From Streptomyces sp. NBC_00457 (lineage in GTDB: Bacteria; Actinomycetota; Actinomycetes; Streptomycetales; Streptomycetaceae): a DNA stretch of 64,000 bases. The notes beneath the pieces were generated by a model. That model was not told the origin of the DNA. It saw only the letters and a program-made list of their open reading frames with translations, and did no database searches. Positions 44,049-52,648 of the stretch are shown in pieces (within the stretch, counting starts at the first letter, position 1; each line of letters opens with the position of its first letter). The DNA lies in assembly GCF_036014015.1 (NCBI RefSeq), contig NZ_CP107905.1, positions 992,001 to 1,056,000 of the forward strand. The letters are read 5' to 3'. The position numbers and the translations under genes are program-made.

Positions 44049-45986
44049 TCACTCGCCGATGCGCGCGATGTGGAACGTGAACTCGAGCAGCCGCCACTCG
44101 CCCTCGACCGGCCGGCCGTCGGGTGTGGGGCCGGTGCGCGGGACGAAGTCCGTGATCAGGTCGTCCTTGACGCCGAAGACCGCGTCGCGCTGCCCGGGGG
44201 CACCGTCGAGGTAGGCGCCGCCGCGGACGAACAGCTGGGTGATCAGGGGCTGGTGTCCGGGGGCGTCGATCAGGAAGTGCACGTGCGGTGCGCGGTAGGG
44301 GTGGCGGCCCACGGCGGAGAGCATCCTGCCCACCGGCCCGTCGTCCGGGATCGGGTACTCGGACGGGAGGATCGACCAGAACGTGAACCGCCCGTCCTCG
44401 TCGGTGGTGAACCGGGCGCGCAGCACCGGCCCGTCCAGATCCGGGAGTTGGACGTCGTAGAAGCCCTCCTCGTTGGACTGCCACACGTCCACGACGGCCC
44501 CGGGGACCGGTGCGCCCTCGCGGTCGGTGACCCGGATGTCCGCCCACAGCGGTGTGCCGGTGAGGTCCCCCGCGATGTCGCTGCCGTGTTCGGCGGCGGG
44601 CGGTCCGGCCACGTAGAAGGGGCCGAGGATCGCCGACGAAGTGGTGTCGGGCGTACGGGAGTTGGTGAGCGCGTCGACCACGCTGGACACGCCGAGGGTG
44701 TCGGAGAGCAGGATGAACTCCTGCCTGGTGTCGGTGGTGATGTGACCGGCCTCGGTGAGGAAGTCGATCGCGGACTGCCACTCCCGCGGGGTGAGGTCGT
44801 TGCGGATCGTGTAGGCGTGCAGGGTGCGGGCGAGATCGGTCAGGAGCTGCCTGAGGCGCGGGTTCTCGCAGCCGGCGAAGCTCGCCACGACCTCTTCGGT
44901 GAGCGGACGCAGGTCGGGAGGTCCCTCGGGGCGGCGGCCCTGCCAGGCGCCGCGCAGCAGGCCGGCGAGTCCGGTGCGGGTCAGTTCGCGCGGGTTGGGG
45001 TACGGCTGTGCGGTGGCCAGTTCCGCCGCGCGGTCCAGGTCGGACTCGTCGAGGCCGAGTTCGCGCAGCGAGGTGGGGCCGCCGACCCGGTGGATCAGGT
45101 CGAAGACGCCTGCGGGGGCGTCGGGCACGTCCAGGGCGTGTGCGATGCGCTCCATCGCCTCCGGTGCGGCGGGCGCGTTGTATGCCATCGCGTGCGGGAG
45201 GACCACCGTGTGGGTCTCGGCGTGCGGAAGACCGAAGGCGCCGCCCAGCGTGTGGCAGAGCTTGTGGTGCAGCCCCATGCCCACGGCCCCCAGGCACATG
45301 CCCGCCAGCCAGGCGGCCTGCAGCAGCTCGGCCCGCGCCTCTGCGTCGGTCGGGTCGTCGTGGAGGGCCGGGAGCGCCCTGCCGATGGCGGTGACCGCTT
45401 CCACGGCCATGGCGTCGGTGACCGGCGTGGCGTCCGGCGCGTAGAGGGCCTCCACGGCGTGGGCCAGGGCGTTGATGCCGCTGGTCACGGTCGCCGGGAC
45501 GGGCAGGCCGAGGGTGAGCTCGACGTCGTACACGACCGTTTCGGGCAGGATCGCGGGCGAGGAGCGGGTGGTCTTGCGGCCGTCGACGGTCTCGCCGAGC
45601 ACGGGGGTGACCTCGGACCCGGCGTACGTGGTCGGCACGATCACCTGAGGCAGATCCGTGCGGACCGCCAGCGCCTTCGCGAGGCCGGTCGTCGAGCCGC
45701 CGCCGATCGCCACCAGGCAGTCCACGCTCCGGTCCCGCAGCAGCCGCAGGGCCTGCTCGGTCACCTCGACGGGCGTGTGCATGGCCGCGCCCGCGAACTC
45801 GGCCGTCACCAGCTCGCCCAGGACTCCACGGAGCCGCTCGGTGTCCTTGCGCAGGGCCCGTGACCCGCCCGACAGGAGCATGACCCGGGACCCGCCGAGC
45901 CGCTCGGCCTCCTCACGCACCCGGTCCAGGGTGCCCGCACCGAAGATCACCCGGCTCGGTCCGGCCGTATGGACGAAACTCCTCAT
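44049..45986 (-). CDS. Fusion of maleylacetate reductase and hydroxyquinol 1,2-dioxygenase
   Basis: A single 645-residue frame. Residues 1 to about 350 are an iron-containing alcohol dehydrogenase-fold maleylacetate reductase ('VAIGGGSTTGLAKALA' at 93-108, 'GLHHKLCHTLGGAFGLPHAE' at 238-257). Residues about 358-645 are an intradiol dioxygenase with its helical linker domain and non-haem Fe(III) ligands Tyr510, Tyr544, His568 and His570. The two are normally separate enzymes: hydroxyquinol to maleylacetate, then to 3-oxoadipate. Start ATG 45986 has GGAGAG upstream; ATG 46001 is an alternative. There is no stop or frameshift at the junction, so the fusion is real unless the assembly is wrong. 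Confidence 0.93.
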   Translation of the reverse strand: MRSFVHTAGPSRVIFGAGTLDRVREEAERLGGSRVMLLSGGSRALRKDTERLRGVLGELVTAEFAGAAMHTPVEVTEQALRLLRDRSVDCLVAIGGGSTTGLAKALAVRTDLPQVIVPTTYAGSEVTPVLGETVDGRKTTRSSPAILPETVVYDVELTLGLPVPATVTSGINALAHAVEALYAPDATPVTDAMAVEAVTAIGRALPALHDDPTDAEARAELLQAAWLAGMCLGAVGMGLHHKLCHTLGGAFGLPHAETHTVVLPHAMAYNAPAAPEAMERIAHALDVPDAPAGVFDLIHRVGGPTSLRELGLDESDLDRAAELATAQPYPNPRELTRTGLAGLLRGAWQGRRPEGPPDLRPLTEEVVASFAGCENPRLRQLLTDLARTLHAYTIRNDLTPREWQSAIDFLTEAGHITTDTRQEFILLSDTLGVSSVVDALTNSRTPDTTSSAILGPFYVAGPPAAEHGSDIAGDLTGTPLWADIRVTDREGAPVPGAVVDVWQSNEEGFYDVQLPDLDGPVLRARFTTDEDGRFTFWSILPSEYPIPDDGPVGRMLSAVGRHPYRAPHVHFLIDAPGHQPLITQLFVRGGAYLDGAPGQRDAVFGVKDDLITDFVPRTGPTPDGRPVEGEWRLLEFTFHIARIGE

Positions 45987-46061
45987 GAGGCCGCTCTCCA
46001 TGCTGTGCTCTGTGGGGGTCGGGGCGTCTGCGGCAGTATCCGTACCCAATGGCACGTCGCG

Positions 46062-47226: not shown

Positions 47227-48600
47227 ATGATCGGCAGACATGCCGCGGTCGGTCGCCGCACCGCCCTGACCGCTCTCGGGATCCTCACCCTCACCGGGAT
47301 CACCTCGACCGCGGCGGCCGAGCCCCCCAAGCCGGCGCCCGGGTCCACCGCCGCGCAGACGGTCGGTGCCGACCGGCCGTCGGCGGCGGTGCTGCGTGCG
47401 CTGCAGCGTGACCTCGGGCTGACGCCGGGTCAGGCGGCCGAGCGTCTGGTCAACGAGGCGGAGGCGGGCGTCCGTGCGGGCCGTCTCCGCAACGCGCTGG
47501 GCGAGCGCTTCGCGGGGGCCTGGGTGCGGGGGGCGACCGCCGCCGAGCTCACCGTCGCGACCACGCGGGCCGCCGACGTGTCCCTCATCCGGGCCCAGGG
47601 CGCGAAGGCCGCGGTCGTCAAGCGGACGTTGCGCGAACTGCAGGCCGTCAAGGAGAAGCTGGACACGGCCGCCACCCGCGTCACGACACGGGACACGCCG
47701 GTCTGGTACGTCGACGTACCGGCGAACCGGGTCGTCGTCGAGGCGGTCAGGCAGTCGGCCGCCACCGCCTTCATCAAGGCGGCCGGCGTCCAGGGCCAGG
47801 ACGTCGGCGTCCGCGTGTCCTCGGCGCGGCCACGGCTGCTGGCGGACATCGTCGGCGGCGACGCCTACTACATCGGGACCACGGCCCGCTGCTCCATCGG
47901 CTTCTCCATCACCAAGGGCACGCAGCAGGGCTTCGCCTCGGCCGGCCACTGCGGCGACCCGGATGACAAGACCACCGGCTACAACAAGGCCGACCAGGGC
48001 ACGTTCAAGGCCTCCACGTTCCCCGGCAAGGACATGTCCTGGGTCGCCGTCAACACCGAATGGACCGCCACACCCGACGTCAAGGGCGAGGGCGGCGAGA
48101 AGACGGAGATCACCGGATCGGTCCAGGCCCTCGTCGGGGCGTCCGTCTGCCGCTCCGGCTCCACCACCGGATGGCACTGCGGCACCATCCAGCAGCACGA
48201 CACGAGTGTCGACTACTCCCAGGGCAAGGTCGACGGCGTCACCAAGACCAGCGTGTGCGCCGAGCCGGGCGACTCCGGCGGCCCGTTCGTCTCCGGCAGC
48301 CAGGCGCAGGGCGTGACCTCCGGCGGCTCGGGCGACTGCACCAGCGGCGGGACCACCTACTACCAGCCGGTCAATCCGATCCTCAAGGACTTCGGCCTCG
48401 TCCTGAAGACCGCGTCCGCCGAGGCCCTGCCGCCCGGTCAGCAGGACAACGCGGTGGAGGGCGCATGGGCCGCCGGCCGCGTCTACGAGGCCGGCACCAC
48501 GGTGACCCACTCCGGTGCGCGCTACCTCTGCCTGCAGACCCACCAGGCGCAGGGCGTGTGGTCGCCGAGTGCCACTCCGGCCCTGTGGCAGAAGCTGTAG
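47227..48600 (+). CDS. Secreted streptogrisin-type serine protease with chitin-binding domain
   Basis: A 457-residue S1 (alpha-lytic/streptogrisin) protease precursor. Signal peptide residues 1 to about 31, a long pro-region (about 40-206) needed for folding, and mature enzyme starting near residue 207 (IVGGDAYYIG). The triad is His241 (SAGHCG), Asp269 (GKDMSW) and Ser350 (EPGDSGGP); paired cysteines are present. A C-terminal carbohydrate-binding module (about 411-457, 'WAAGRVYEAGTTVTHSGARY') is of the chitin-binding type, as in streptogrisin C. GGAGG precedes ATG 47227. An 11-bp hairpin follows. Confidence 0.95.
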   Translation: MIGRHAAVGRRTALTALGILTLTGITSTAAAEPPKPAPGSTAAQTVGADRPSAAVLRALQRDLGLTPGQAAERLVNEAEAGVRAGRLRNALGERFAGAWVRGATAAELTVATTRAADVSLIRAQGAKAAVVKRTLRELQAVKEKLDTAATRVTTRDTPVWYVDVPANRVVVEAVRQSAATAFIKAAGVQGQDVGVRVSSARPRLLADIVGGDAYYIGTTARCSIGFSITKGTQQGFASAGHCGDPDDKTTGYNKADQGTFKASTFPGKDMSWVAVNTEWTATPDVKGEGGEKTEITGSVQALVGASVCRSGSTTGWHCGTIQQHDTSVDYSQGKVDGVTKTSVCAEPGDSGGPFVSGSQAQGVTSGGSGDCTSGGTTYYQPVNPILKDFGLVLKTASAEALPPGQQDNAVEGAWAAGRVYEAGTTVTHSGARYLCLQTHQAQGVWSPSATPALWQKL

Positions 48601-48657: not shown

Positions 48658-49737
48658 CTACTCCTCCGCGAGAAGCGCGTACGCGGTGGCAACGAAGGAG
48701 TCGCGGGCGCGGAACCGGCGGGTGCACAGCGCGACCAGGGCCGTGCCCGTGTCGGGCCTGAAGCCCAGGAACGCCTGCTGGCCGAGGGTCGCCCCGCTGT
48801 GGAAGTACATCGGTCCGCCGTTCGTGGGATGCCGGAACCACGCCATCGTGTGCGTGTGCCGGTGTCCCAGACCGCGTCGCAGCAAGGGCGTGCGCACCGC
48901 CCGCAGTGCGCCGGCCAGCGGGGAGCCGGCCGGGTCGAGGTGGGCTTCGAGGAAGGTCAGCAGATCGTGCGGGGTGGCGCGGACGGCGCCGGCCGCTTGG
49001 AAGCCGCCCGCGTCGAAGGCGGCGGTGCTGGTGCGGCCGTCCTTGCCGTGTCCGACGGCGTCGGTCTTCGGATCCTCCGGCCGCAGGGCGGTGCCGCTCA
49101 GGCCGAGCGGACGCAGTATGTGCGCGCCGAGCAATTCGTCCCAGGCCGTGCCCGTGACCGCGGCGAGGGCGTGGCCGAGCACGGCGACGCCGAAGTTGGA
49201 GTACTCCCACCGGGTGCCGGGCCGGTGCCGGGAGCGGTGTCGCAGGAACGCCCGGGTCACGCACTCGGCGGGATAGCGGCCGTAGGGGTTGGTGCGCCAG
49301 GCGGGAAGCGCCCGTACGTAGAAGTCGGCCGGCAGGGTGGGCAGTCCGGCGGTGTGCGTGACGAGGTGGGCGAGCGTCACCGGGGCCGGCCCGGTCCGCC
49401 GGGCCGGGTCCAGGCAGGCGGCGGCCGGCTCGCCCCCGGTCAGCAGGCCGCGCTGGATGAGCTGGGCCAGCAGCAGTCCCGTGAACGTCTTGGACGCCGA
49501 CCCGATCTCGTACCGCAGGTCTTCGCGAGGGACCGGCGGGGGCGGGGCCGTGCCGCCGCAGTGCAGGGTGCGGCGACCGGCCCGGGAGACGGCGAAGACG
49601 GCGTCGGGCGCGTCGACGGCGTGGACGGCGCTCTCCAGCAGCTCCCGCACCGTGTCGTCGCTGCCGAGGGTGCCACCCCTGCCGTCCTGGTCGCTGTCGT
49701 CGGCGCCGCCCGGCCAGGGCGTGGAGCGGCCGGTCAT
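48658..49737 (-). CDS. Beta-lactamase-family serine hydrolase
   Basis: A 359-residue enzyme of the serine beta-lactamase/DD-peptidase/EstB fold. The SxxK motif is SASK (Ser80, Lys83) in 'YEIGSASKTFTG', and the YxN motif is in 'RWEYSNFGVAVLG'. No signal peptide or membrane helix, unlike penicillin-binding proteins, so it acts in the cytoplasm. Start ATG 49737 overlaps the DUF6895-type gene by four bases. As the last gene of the peptide operon it could hydrolyse or acylate a peptide; this is inference. Confidence 0.9.
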   Translation of the reverse strand: MTGRSTPWPGGADDSDQDGRGGTLGSDDTVRELLESAVHAVDAPDAVFAVSRAGRRTLHCGGTAPPPPVPREDLRYEIGSASKTFTGLLLAQLIQRGLLTGGEPAAACLDPARRTGPAPVTLAHLVTHTAGLPTLPADFYVRALPAWRTNPYGRYPAECVTRAFLRHRSRHRPGTRWEYSNFGVAVLGHALAAVTGTAWDELLGAHILRPLGLSGTALRPEDPKTDAVGHGKDGRTSTAAFDAGGFQAAGAVRATPHDLLTFLEAHLDPAGSPLAGALRAVRTPLLRRGLGHRHTHTMAWFRHPTNGGPMYFHSGATLGQQAFLGFRPDTGTALVALCTRRFRARDSFVATAYALLAEE

Positions 49738-50654
49738 GGGGTGGCGTGCGCCAGCTCGGTGAGGGCGCGGGAGGTGGCCAGTACGGATGCGAAGGCGGCG
49801 ACCAGCGTCGGGTGGTAGACGAGGTCGAACACCTCGTCCGGATCGCCGTCGGGCATCGCCCCGAAGGCGGGCATGGCACCGTCGGGCTGCTGTGCGGCGG
49901 CGAAGCCCTCCCATGCCCGTGTGTCCAGGGTGGGGCGGGGCAGACAGGCGTCGACGACGAGGAGTTCGCCGAGCAGGTCCCAGCGCTTCAGATCCAGCCA
50001 GTCGTCGATCCAGGCCGGCAGCCACATGGCGAGGTAGTCGGCGATGTCCGGGGGCAGGCCGTCGGCGTGCTCTCCCCAGTCGGTGAGGTGGAACACCGCG
50101 TGAGTGACGTCGTAGGCGATGTGCCCGCTGACCGTCCATGGCTCGGGCCTGCGGGCCAGCCACGTGGCGCCGACGAGGTCCGCCTCGGGCGGGCTGGGCG
50201 TGAGGCCGAAGCGGCGCTGGAACGCGGCCAGTCCGAGACGTCGGGTCGGGTCGAGTTCGAGGGCCGCCCAGCTGTCGAGCCGGTGGTAGAGGACGGTGGC
50301 GCGCTCCACCTCGGGTTCGCTGTACCCGAGTTCCTTGTACGGGAGGTACACCTCGAACGGGATGGGCGAGAGCGGCTCGATGCGCTGCCCGCGCACCAGC
50401 ATGCGGCCGCCGTCCAGCGTGTGCCGCCAGGTGTGGTCCACGAGCTTGCGCGCCAGCTCGGCCTGCTGTGATCCGGCCACGCCTTCGCGGAACAACACCC
50501 GGCAGATCAGGGCCAGTTCGCCGACCGGTTTGAAACGCTCGAGGAAGCCCACTTCCGGATCGACGTCGGGCTCCAGGCGGAATCCGTCGCGATGGGCCCA
50601 CAGCCACTCCAGGGCGCGGACGCCGACGGTGTGTATCAGACGGGTGTCGGTCAT
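49734..50654 (-). CDS. DUF6895-type helical protein, copy 1
   Basis: A 306-residue mostly helical protein, paralogous to the next gene upstream. Shared landmarks are an N-terminal 'ALEWLWAHRDGF', a central Arg-Arg-Leu-Gly segment, and the strongly conserved 'VTHAVFHLTDWG' followed by 'LAMWLPAWIDDWLDLKRWDL' and 'YHPTLVAAFASV'. The spacing of helices suggests an alpha/alpha-barrel. The family name DUF6895 is recalled. No signal. Start and end both overlap neighbours by four bases. Function unknown. Confidence 0.85.
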   Translation of the reverse strand: MTDTRLIHTVGVRALEWLWAHRDGFRLEPDVDPEVGFLERFKPVGELALICRVLFREGVAGSQQAELARKLVDHTWRHTLDGGRMLVRGQRIEPLSPIPFEVYLPYKELGYSEPEVERATVLYHRLDSWAALELDPTRRLGLAAFQRRFGLTPSPPEADLVGATWLARRPEPWTVSGHIAYDVTHAVFHLTDWGEHADGLPPDIADYLAMWLPAWIDDWLDLKRWDLLGELLVVDACLPRPTLDTRAWEGFAAAQQPDGAMPAFGAMPDGDPDEVFDLVYHPTLVAAFASVLATSRALTELAHATP

Positions 50655-51616
50655 CCAGGCGCTCCTTGTTCCTCGTACCCGTGGTGCATACCGCCCTCGC
50701 CCGTAAGGCACTTGAGGGTCTGTGCCGCCGCGAACGCGGCCATCAGCGTGGAGTGGTAGCAGCGGCGGAAGTCCGGCTCCGGAACTGCTTCGCCGTCGCC
50801 CCGCGGGCCCTGCTCCGGGAGCGCGCCCGAGGCGTGCTGCGCCCGCGCGATCCGCGGCCAGGCGTGCTGGAGGGTCCCGGGGTCGGGCGGGGACGGGAGG
50901 CTCGCGGCGACGATCAGCAGCTCGCAACTGAGGTCCCACATCCCGGCGTCCAGGCAGGTGTCGAGCCAGGCGGGCAGCCAGTCGGCGAGGTAGGCGGCCA
51001 GGTCCGCGGGGACGCCGTCGGGGGTGCGGCCCCAGTCGGTGAGGTGGAAGACGACGTGGGTGAGCGCGTACCCGGAGGAGCGCTCGAACGTCCAGGGTTC
51101 CGGCAGTCCGCCCAGCCAGGTGCGGCGCAGTAACCGCGGGTCCTGTTCCGGCCGGTGGATGCCGCTGCGGTGTTCGGCCTTCAGGACGCCGAGCCGGCGG
51201 GTCGGTTCCTGCTCGGTCAGCCGCCAGCCCCGCGTGCGGGCCGTCGTCGCGGCGGCGGTCTCGTAGCCGGAGTGCCGCAGTCCGGCCGAGGCGAAGACGG
51301 AGTAGACCTCCAAGGGGTACGTCGCGAAGGGCTCCAGCGCCTGGAGCCGCAGGAACAGCTCGCCTCGGCCGGTCTGCTGCCACGCGAACCGCAACAGGTC
51401 GGACGCGCACGCGTGGAGCGGGTCCGACGGCGGGCTGTGCGCGCGTACGCTCGCACAGGTCTGGGCCAGTTCCCCGAGTGGTTTCCAGGTGGCGTCCACG
51501 TGGCCGTCCGCGGTGAGCGCGTCCTCCCCCAGCGTGAAGTCGCCACGGTGCGCGGACAGCCAGGCGAAGGCGCCGGCTGCCACGTCCCGGATCCCGTCGA
51601 CGTCCATGGCCGTCAT
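50651..51616 (-). CDS. DUF6895-type helical protein, copy 2, with TTA codon
   Basis: A 321-residue paralogue of the 49734 gene. 'AFAWLSAHRGDF', 'LTHVVFHLTDWG', 'LADWLPAWLDTCLDAGMWDL' and 'YHSTLMAAFAA' align with it in order. The conserved His-x3-His-Leu-Thr-Asp-Trp-Gly segment may hold active-site residues. A TTA leucine codon (51134-51132) implies bldA-dependent translation. The start overlaps the 236-residue gene by four bases. Two diverged copies side by side suggest a heterodimer or two steps on one substrate. Confidence 0.85.
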   Translation of the reverse strand: MTAMDVDGIRDVAAGAFAWLSAHRGDFTLGEDALTADGHVDATWKPLGELAQTCASVRAHSPPSDPLHACASDLLRFAWQQTGRGELFLRLQALEPFATYPLEVYSVFASAGLRHSGYETAAATTARTRGWRLTEQEPTRRLGVLKAEHRSGIHRPEQDPRLLRRTWLGGLPEPWTFERSSGYALTHVVFHLTDWGRTPDGVPADLAAYLADWLPAWLDTCLDAGMWDLSCELLIVAASLPSPPDPGTLQHAWPRIARAQHASGALPEQGPRGDGEAVPEPDFRRCYHSTLMAAFAAAQTLKCLTGEGGMHHGYEEQGAPG

Positions 51617-52323
51617 ACGAGCGCTCCGGCGGCCCGTATGACGCGTGCCGCCTGTGCCTGGAGGGCCACACGGGGGTCGGTGCCGCCCATCAGTTCCACG
51701 AAGTCCAGCCCCGCTTCGAGGCCGAGTGCGTCCGGTACGTCTTCGAGCAGGGTGAGCCAGCGTCCGGCACCGGCCGCCTGTTGCCAGTCCCTGCGGCGCA
51801 CCGCCCGTACGAAGCCCCGGGCCACGTCGACCGTGCGGCGCCGGGCCGCGCGCGCCACCGCGCAGTCCTCGCCGGGCACCGCGAGCGGGGCCAGGACGGC
51901 GAGTTGGTGGGTCAGCACCTGCCAGGTCGCCTCGTCGAGCCAGCGGGCGTCGGGTTGCGCGGTCGCGTCCGTGCCGGGCGGGCCGGTCGGGGGCGGGTCG
52001 AGCCGCCGTAGCGTGCGACGCATGGCCCAGTGGCTCCACAGGACGGTGGGAGCCGCGTCCGCGCGGGGCGGAAAGGCCTCCACGGTCTCCCGGAACAAGG
52101 TGAGGGTCTCGGGGGCGGGCGGGGTGCGGAAGAGGACGTGCGGCAGCAGCAGATCCGCTCCCAACACGCGTACGGCGGCGAACGCGAGGCTTCCGCCATG
52201 GCCGTCGACGGCCTCGGTGCCGGACACTCGCACGTGGTCCCCGCCACGCAGGGCGGAGACCACGTCCGACGCAACGTCCTGCACCGCGCCCTGCAAGAGG
52301 GTCGTAGCGCCTGACTGCTCCAT
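51613..52323 (-). CDS. Uncharacterised 236-residue protein of the peptide operon
   Basis: A helical protein with no recognised motif, signal peptide or membrane helix. Features include 'TVLWSHWAMRRTLRRLDPPP' and 'VDVARGFVRAVRRRDWQQAA'. Two cysteine-poor halves flank a flexible Pro-rich linker (about residues 110-125). It starts at ATG 52323, 24 bases after the peptide gene, and overlaps the DUF6895-type gene. It could recognise the peptide leader or act as a scaffold, but nothing in the sequence shows this. Confidence 0.8.
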   Translation of the reverse strand: MEQSGATTLLQGAVQDVASDVVSALRGGDHVRVSGTEAVDGHGGSLAFAAVRVLGADLLLPHVLFRTPPAPETLTLFRETVEAFPPRADAAPTVLWSHWAMRRTLRRLDPPPTGPPGTDATAQPDARWLDEATWQVLTHQLAVLAPLAVPGEDCAVARAARRRTVDVARGFVRAVRRRDWQQAAGAGRWLTLLEDVPDALGLEAGLDFVELMGGTDPRVALQAQAARVIRAAGALV

Positions 52324-52347
52324 TCTCAGCTGCTCCCGTCGGTCCGC

Positions 52348-52536
52348 TCAGCCCTTCTTGGGGCGAGGGGTCGGCGGGGACAGCAGCAGCTTGGTGTCGG
52401 CGGAAAGCAGCGCCAGAGCGGCGCACTCCCGGCTGTCGCGGAAGACACCGTCGGGCTCCGCGGGGTCGAGCGCCGCCTCGATGTCGATGCTCGGGACGCC
52501 CGTGATTTCCTTGAACGCCTTGTCAGTGGAAGGCAT
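52348..52536 (-). CDS. 62-residue peptide, possible RiPP-type precursor
   Basis: A short gene with a clear AGAGGAG ribosome site before ATG 52536. The peptide has an acidic helical N-terminal half ('FKEITGVPSIDIEAALDPAE'), a single Cys in 'RDSRECAALALLSADTKLLL' and a Pro/Lys-rich end (SPPTPRPKKG). It has no signal peptide. Its position at the head of an operon of unknown enzymes and an acidic-leader-like first half fit a modified-peptide precursor, but no known class is recognised. It could also be a small regulatory or structural protein. Confidence 0.75.
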   Translation of the reverse strand: MPSTDKAFKEITGVPSIDIEAALDPAEPDGVFRDSRECAALALLSADTKLLLSPPTPRPKKG

Positions 52537-52648
52537 ATCACCATCTCCTCTGGGTTCACCCCCGCCACAACCCAGATCACCACAGAGTCACAGAGCACGC
52601 ATCTTTTCCCAGACGTGGCTATACGTCACTTCTTCAACGTTTTAGCGC
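52537..52648 (-). promoter_or_regulatory. Likely promoter region of the peptide operon
   Basis: The minus strand holds TTGAAG (52637-52632) as a possible -35 and an imperfect dyad GACGT-N6-ACGTC at 52612-52627. The stretch is more A/T-rich than its surroundings, as promoters are in this genome. No clear -10 was identified. Confidence 0.35.

Follow-up and report, generated by a model that had tools for sequence, protein, structure and literature searches.

A five-gene operon was examined in a 64,000-nucleotide stretch of the genome of Streptomyces sp. NBC_00457 (hereafter the window; positions 992001-1056000 of a genome of 10.8 Mb in a single contig), where it occupies 48658-52536 on the minus strand. 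In order of transcription the genes encode a 62-residue peptide (PEP, 52348-52536), a 236-residue protein (U236, 51613-52323), two DUF6895 paralogues that are 38% identical (DUF6895-A, 50651-51616, and DUF6895-B, 49734-50654) and an S12/PF00144 serine hydrolase (48658-49737). The junctions U236/A, A/B and B/hydrolase are all 4-base overlaps, a gap of 24 bases (52324-52347) separates PEP from U236, and an AGGAG lies about 10 bases 5' of the PEP start; the coupled layout and ribosome site described in the initial annotation are thus exactly as it placed them. A 189-base gene has been deposited at the position of PEP in an annotated relative, where PEP, U236 and the two DUF6895 genes all carry the label hypothetical protein. 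No further DUF6895 copy was found elsewhere in the source genome. Upstream of PEP, a block at 52537-52640 is conserved in relatives, with GTTGAA..AGTGAC and TGGGAAAAGATGCG-like stretches, and is perhaps a promoter or operator. We consider below whether these genes make and tailor a peptide.

Conservation of the operon and its peptide gene

The initial annotation had staked its proposal of a peptide system on a short gene being conserved beside other DUF6895 pairs, and this is what we see. A locus scan was seeded by two DUF6895 sequence patterns, with genes called by an in-house script, and 80 loci (L073-L152) were compared, all from Streptomyces or Kitasatospora; close relatives are over-represented among them because they are the best 80 of 434. 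Throughout these loci the gene order is the same as far as the contigs extend (L150 has no more than fragments of DUF6895-B and the hydrolase, and L100 has a short hydrolase). PEP was called in 78 of the 80, as the first gene of the operon, and the contigs of the remaining two (L142 and L152) begin inside U236. PEP therefore has the RiPP (ribosomally synthesised and post-translationally modified peptide) hallmark of a short gene conserved beside putative modifying enzymes. Among 20 further loci picked for carrying two DUF6895 copies (L033-L052), the order PEP-U236-A-B-hydrolase was found in 19; the frame of DUF6895-B is split into two called pieces in L043, and in L051 (5459-6361) PEP runs in frame into U236, whether genuinely or through sequencing error being undecided. 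Eight loci carry a single DUF6895 gene (L053-L058, L060 and L061), and in seven of them a peptide of 58-65 residues with a Leu-rich/SPKxPK-like end precedes U236. Some genomes are shared between locus sets; in the merged collection 104 of the 108 A-class proteins were distinct, as were 116 of the 120 B-class proteins.

This association extends through the family Streptomycetaceae. U236 was found in 75 of 150 sampled family genomes, covering 10 of 17 genera, and 20 loci were opened from such matches, three of them within the genus and 17 elsewhere in the family. All 20 have a small gene ahead of the called enzymes, and phmmer (E < 0.05) finds it PEP-like at 19 loci, all but L177. Within the genus, PEP and DUF6895 are linked at the level of whole genomes: DUF6895 occurs in 73 of 150 (72 above the cut-off) and PEP in 63 of 150 at E <= 2.4e-5, all 63 lying within the 73 when genome labels were matched by manual transcription. 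Six more genomes have weak PEP matches (E 7e-4 to 0.01) that were left out of this count, which would be 69 with them. The ten genomes with DUF6895 only include four whose copies belong to the radical S-adenosylmethionine (SAM) type (G004, G015, G041 and G057) and two to the fusion type (G034 and G069), both described below; in the others there is a peptide-gene remnant (G060, locus L056), a weak match (G111) or a divergent small gene before U236 (G120 and G121).

PEP belongs to no Pfam family, its one match scoring 14 bits, well under the cut-off of 26.6 bits. Nei-Gojobori ratios of nonsynonymous to synonymous change (dN/dS) were calculated from 53 distinct 62-codon PEP genes of equal length, compared position by position, and selection proved to be a mosaic. 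The whole gene has a dN/dS of 0.45; residues 1-19 stand at 1.08, a value that internal insertions and deletions may inflate under this kind of comparison, residues 20-44 (52405-52479) are constrained at about 0.24, residues 45-50 (52387-52404) vary freely at about 0.99, as is also visible in the alignments, and the C-terminal block LLSPPTPRPKKG (residues 51-62, 52351-52386) is nearly frozen at 0.055. Because PEP is kept beside the same genes and its conserved parts have dN/dS far below 1, we regard it as a real gene and not a chance open reading frame (ORF), and its combination of a conserved part with a variable part follows the pattern of RiPP precursors. Two slightly different PEP genes stand in tandem in both L121 and L196. 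The peptides of the single-DUF6895 operons differ from PEP but can be aligned with it, and all share a middle part that is acidic, a stretch rich in Leu and an end of the form Ser-Pro-x-x-Pro-basic (SPxxPK), L177 being the most divergent row.

The DUF6895 proteins, U236 and the hydrolase

Both paralogues match Pfam DUF6895 (PF21836) over essentially its full length, with scores far beyond the curated threshold (23.8 bits), DUF6895-A at 301.8 bits (positions 2-289 of 289) and DUF6895-B at 283.2 bits (positions 3-288 of 289). The AlphaFold2 (AF2) model of DUF6895-A is all-helical with no strands (predicted local distance difference test, pLDDT, 92.1) and resembles (alpha/alpha)6 barrels. A DUF6895 protein has been named a lasso-peptide epimerase in the title of Shi et al. 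(ACS Catal. 2026, 16, 1757, cited in the review PMC13352647, the one paper of the open-access literature searched in which the family name occurs), and we accordingly propose DUF6895-A and -B as peptide epimerases. A lasso-type gene set was found at L070 (3760-7773), where a 39-residue gene is followed consecutively by PF13471, PF00733, a B1-like gene and a DUF6895 protein scoring 134.4 bits. The B1-like protein matches the actinodefensin-associated B family and not the lasso one. In lasso peptides the ring can join Gly1 to Asp7/8, and in the 39-residue product a Thr stands two positions ahead of the stretch Gly-Trp-Ser-Gly-Pro-Thr-Asp-Asp. PMC10368454 gives a Thr at the penultimate leader position as a trait of lasso precursors, and the L070 gene set fits the published title. 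The L070 copy carries the polar set K45/E49/Y183/T186/H187/D228/E232/H288, and these candidate catalytic residues are all kept in DUF6895-A and -B (in this comparison the two L175 proteins were grouped with the fusion copies, U236 having been missed there by the gene calls). The operon differs from the lasso system in having two tandem copies alongside U236 and an S12 hydrolase, in the separate clade of its DUF6895 proteins and in its precursor. The lasso cyclase (Asn_synthase, PF00733), B1 and B2 that define a lasso pathway were not found in the operon's five proteins or in nine scanned neighbours. MslH, the epimerase of the lasso peptide MS-271, is outlined in PMC10406935 as a calcium-dependent calcineurin-like enzyme using acid/base chemistry; it likewise epimerises a ribosomal precursor, but the all-helical model of DUF6895-A does not have the calcineurin-like fold.

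Elsewhere, too, DUF6895 genes lie beside small peptide genes. At all seven of the loci L062-L068 a 38-42-residue peptide gene accompanies two DUF6895 genes with one gene between them, which is a radical SAM gene by Pfam in L062 and by sequence likeness in L066, and was judged by size and place in the others. These clusters share with our operon a small peptide gene and a DUF6895 pair, but in place of U236 and the S12 hydrolase the Pfam-checked L062 (4422-10375) has, in order, a peptide (ending, for example, GCIVNNSSDLS), a glycosyltransferase-like gene, DUF6895, radical SAM, DUF6895 and a major facilitator superfamily (MFS) gene. A prolyl-oligopeptidase gene follows there as well; no gene of that size lies beside the L067 cluster. 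They also differ in that one DUF6895 copy of each pair no longer has four of the polar residues conserved elsewhere: positions 49, 183, 232 and 288 read Q, C, K and Q (each in 7 of the 14 copies). This loss suggests pairs of one active and one inactive protein. In a fusion type (L059, L071 and L072) DUF6895 forms the N-terminal part of proteins of 544-593 residues, and a conserved 65-72-residue gene (..RKALxFLxTSGLV..) lies upstream in all three loci. DUF6895-like stretches are also carried by plasmids of Pseudalkalibacillus (Bacillota; L198:6413-8332, with an 86-residue gene upstream) and Cupriavidus (a betaproteobacterium; L197:7001-7750), which makes it probable that the family extends beyond actinomycetes. 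Judged by gene neighbourhood, these contexts agree with a role of DUF6895 in RiPP pathways.

In a tree of 33 rows, rooted at the midpoint, the copies linked to U236, whether A, B or single, group together (support 100/99) apart from the lasso, radical SAM, fusion and Bacillota copies, the lasso and Bacillota rows being long branches of uncertain place. Within it the B clade (100/100) and the single clade (99/95) are firmly supported and the A clade less so (85/93). Given this separation, the epimerase label reaches the operon only through family membership and the shared residues.

U236 has no Pfam or NCBIfam match. Its AF2 model is all-helical, with no strands (mean pLDDT 87.6), and gives weak ARM-like matches; we propose that it is a peptide-binding partner or chaperone. 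The RiPP recognition element (RRE) is a winged helix with beta strands. No strands are present in the models of U236 and DUF6895-A; an RRE profile search was not made, and DUF6895-B and the hydrolase were not modelled.

The hydrolase matches PF00144 at 180.2 bits over residues 33-357 of 359 and has the motifs of the S12 family, SxxK at 80-83, YxN at 179-181 and HxG at 313-315. Across 124 aligned hydrolases the S, K, Y and N of the first two motifs are present in 122 (two being gapped), the H of the third in 123 and its G in all 124. No signal peptide was apparent by eye in the three hydrolase N-termini inspected, and the enzyme is predicted to be cytosolic. Among the best 60 of 117 matches to solved structures the closest are a beta-lactamase related to penicillin-binding proteins (PBPs), 2qmi (66.0 bits), and ClbP, 3o3v (62.3 bits), together with many class C beta-lactamases and, lower down, an alkaline D-peptidase (4y7p) and a DD-carboxypeptidase (1sde). 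Several such PF00144-type relatives, among them ClbP and the S12 D-peptidases, act at D-residues. The likeness to ClbP (PDB 3o3v) and the S12 D-peptidases (PDB 4y7p) lies in the common serine hydrolase type, but the operon enzyme has a predicted cytosolic location, a ribosomal peptide in its operon and a score to ClbP of only 62.3 bits. SurE, as portrayed in PMC11735501, is a PBP-type thioesterase with a C-terminal lipocalin-like domain that requires a D-residue at the acyl site and partners a nonribosomal peptide synthetase (NRPS). Both are PBP/beta-lactamase-like serine enzymes; here, however, PF00144 fills almost the whole protein and the operon holds no NRPS. The hydrolase is therefore not a SurE, which is a statement about what it is and not about how it may work.

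Beyond the operon's end, and convergent with it, lies a gene for a secreted S1 (alpha-lytic-type) protease with a CBM5/12 carbohydrate-binding module (47227-48600). A homologue is the next, convergent gene in all 74 of the 80 loci with enough flank (six are cut), but the more varied set L033-L052 yielded one at no more than 10 of its 20 loci. Further on, a 650-residue ORF (44049-46001) adjoining a flavin adenine dinucleotide (FAD) aromatic hydroxylase gene matches both iron-containing alcohol dehydrogenase, a part which we take to be maleylacetate-reductase-like, and intradiol dioxygenase, and is apparently a fused ring-cleavage enzyme.

A candidate pathway to a D-amino-acid peptide

We read the operon as RiPP-like, with PEP as the precursor, DUF6895 proteins that would epimerise residues to the D-form and an S12 hydrolase that would act at a D-residue, and give this reading a probability of about 0.52. 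With PEP first and the overlapping genes behind it, the constrained middle of the peptide (residues 20-44) would bind the enzymes, as its constraint suggests, probably with help from U236. One or both DUF6895 proteins would then turn at least one L-residue of PEP to D, a step to which the family name, the peptide-gene contexts and the conserved residues point, most likely within or beside the Leu-rich block that precedes the Ser-Pro tail. At this D-residue the hydrolase may remove the tail, which is basic and rich in Pro, or the leader, or else transfer or close the acyl chain in the manner of PBP-type enzymes; by analogy with such enzymes, the Leu before Ser-Pro in the frozen block would suit a serine hydrolase acting at a D-residue. 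A D-amino-acid peptide is preferred to wholly new chemistry because of the published title and the lasso-type gene set at L070. The initial annotation's undescribed peptide-tailoring system thus finds good support in comparative genomics, although it is not as free of known RiPP chemistry as that proposal had implied. No description of the operon was found in the open-access literature searched, most subscription papers being outside that search.

Several points weigh against this reading. The literature ties DUF6895 to epimerisation through one paper title only, and the fold of DUF6895-A is by itself no proof of an epimerase because it is matched chiefly by glycosidases and terpene cyclases. 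The A/B/single clade is well separated from the lasso, radical SAM and fusion copies, and its activity may therefore differ. In L056 (8430-8500) the enzymes are kept beside a peptide gene of which just a start remnant survives. A nearly frozen C-terminus is unusual for a natural-product core, and the five operon genes include no transporter, immunity or regulator gene. The case is moreover a genomic one, the product and its modification being predictions from sequence.

Some of these points would favour other explanations. It is conceivable, though we think it unlikely, that PEP is a precursor but the DUF6895 proteins of this clade perform chemistry other than epimerisation, or that one copy serves only as a binding partner: beyond the position of the clade, the (alpha/alpha)6 fold is common to cyclases, lyases and hydrolases, and the altered copy in each radical SAM pair indicates that DUF6895 copies can change role, but both proteins here retain the full polar set of the lasso copy. 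We are similarly doubtful that PEP serves as a small subunit, structural or regulatory, in an enzyme complex acting on some other metabolite and is no precursor. Its near-invariant end, the lack of an exporter gene and the read-through into U236 in L051 would all suit a subunit, against which stand the freely varying segments flanking frozen ones, the tandem divergent copies and the occurrence of DUF6895 elsewhere beside unrelated small genes, one of them lasso-precursor-like. A cell-wall D-peptide system, in which the hydrolase is a DD-peptidase assisted by the other genes, seems very improbable; PF00144 does include DD-carboxypeptidases, and 1sde is among the relatives listed, but the three hydrolase N-termini inspected lack an apparent signal peptide and the hydrolase gene overlaps that of DUF6895-B in an operon headed by a small peptide gene. 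That unrelated genes have come together by chance is rejected, since the same order recurs in the 80 loci as far as their contigs extend.

Returning to the D-peptide reading, there is a real chance that the operon, which has no classical class-defining enzyme, represents a new RiPP class. One specific form of this, which we hold only tentatively and consider rather unlikely, would have paired (alpha/alpha)6-barrel epimerases supply, within the Leu-rich block of the precursor, a D-residue as acyl donor for a cytosolic PBP-like hydrolase that closes or transfers the peptide, with a helical-repeat protein replacing the recognition domain; the Ser-Pro-basic tail would be dropped, making a ribosomal counterpart of the heterochiral coupling by SurE. 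The near-invariant PEP end would argue for a conserved target or role and not an arms race, and because this product end is nearly frozen across the family, the product of such a class would be a conserved molecule of the Streptomycetaceae and not a variable weapon. U236, which marks the operon, occurs in half of the sampled family genomes, in organisms intensively mined for peptide chemistry. If our reading is correct, this small five-gene set would add a widespread D-peptide pathway to these bacteria, in which epimerisation is coupled to a D-specific serine hydrolase within a ribosomal pathway.

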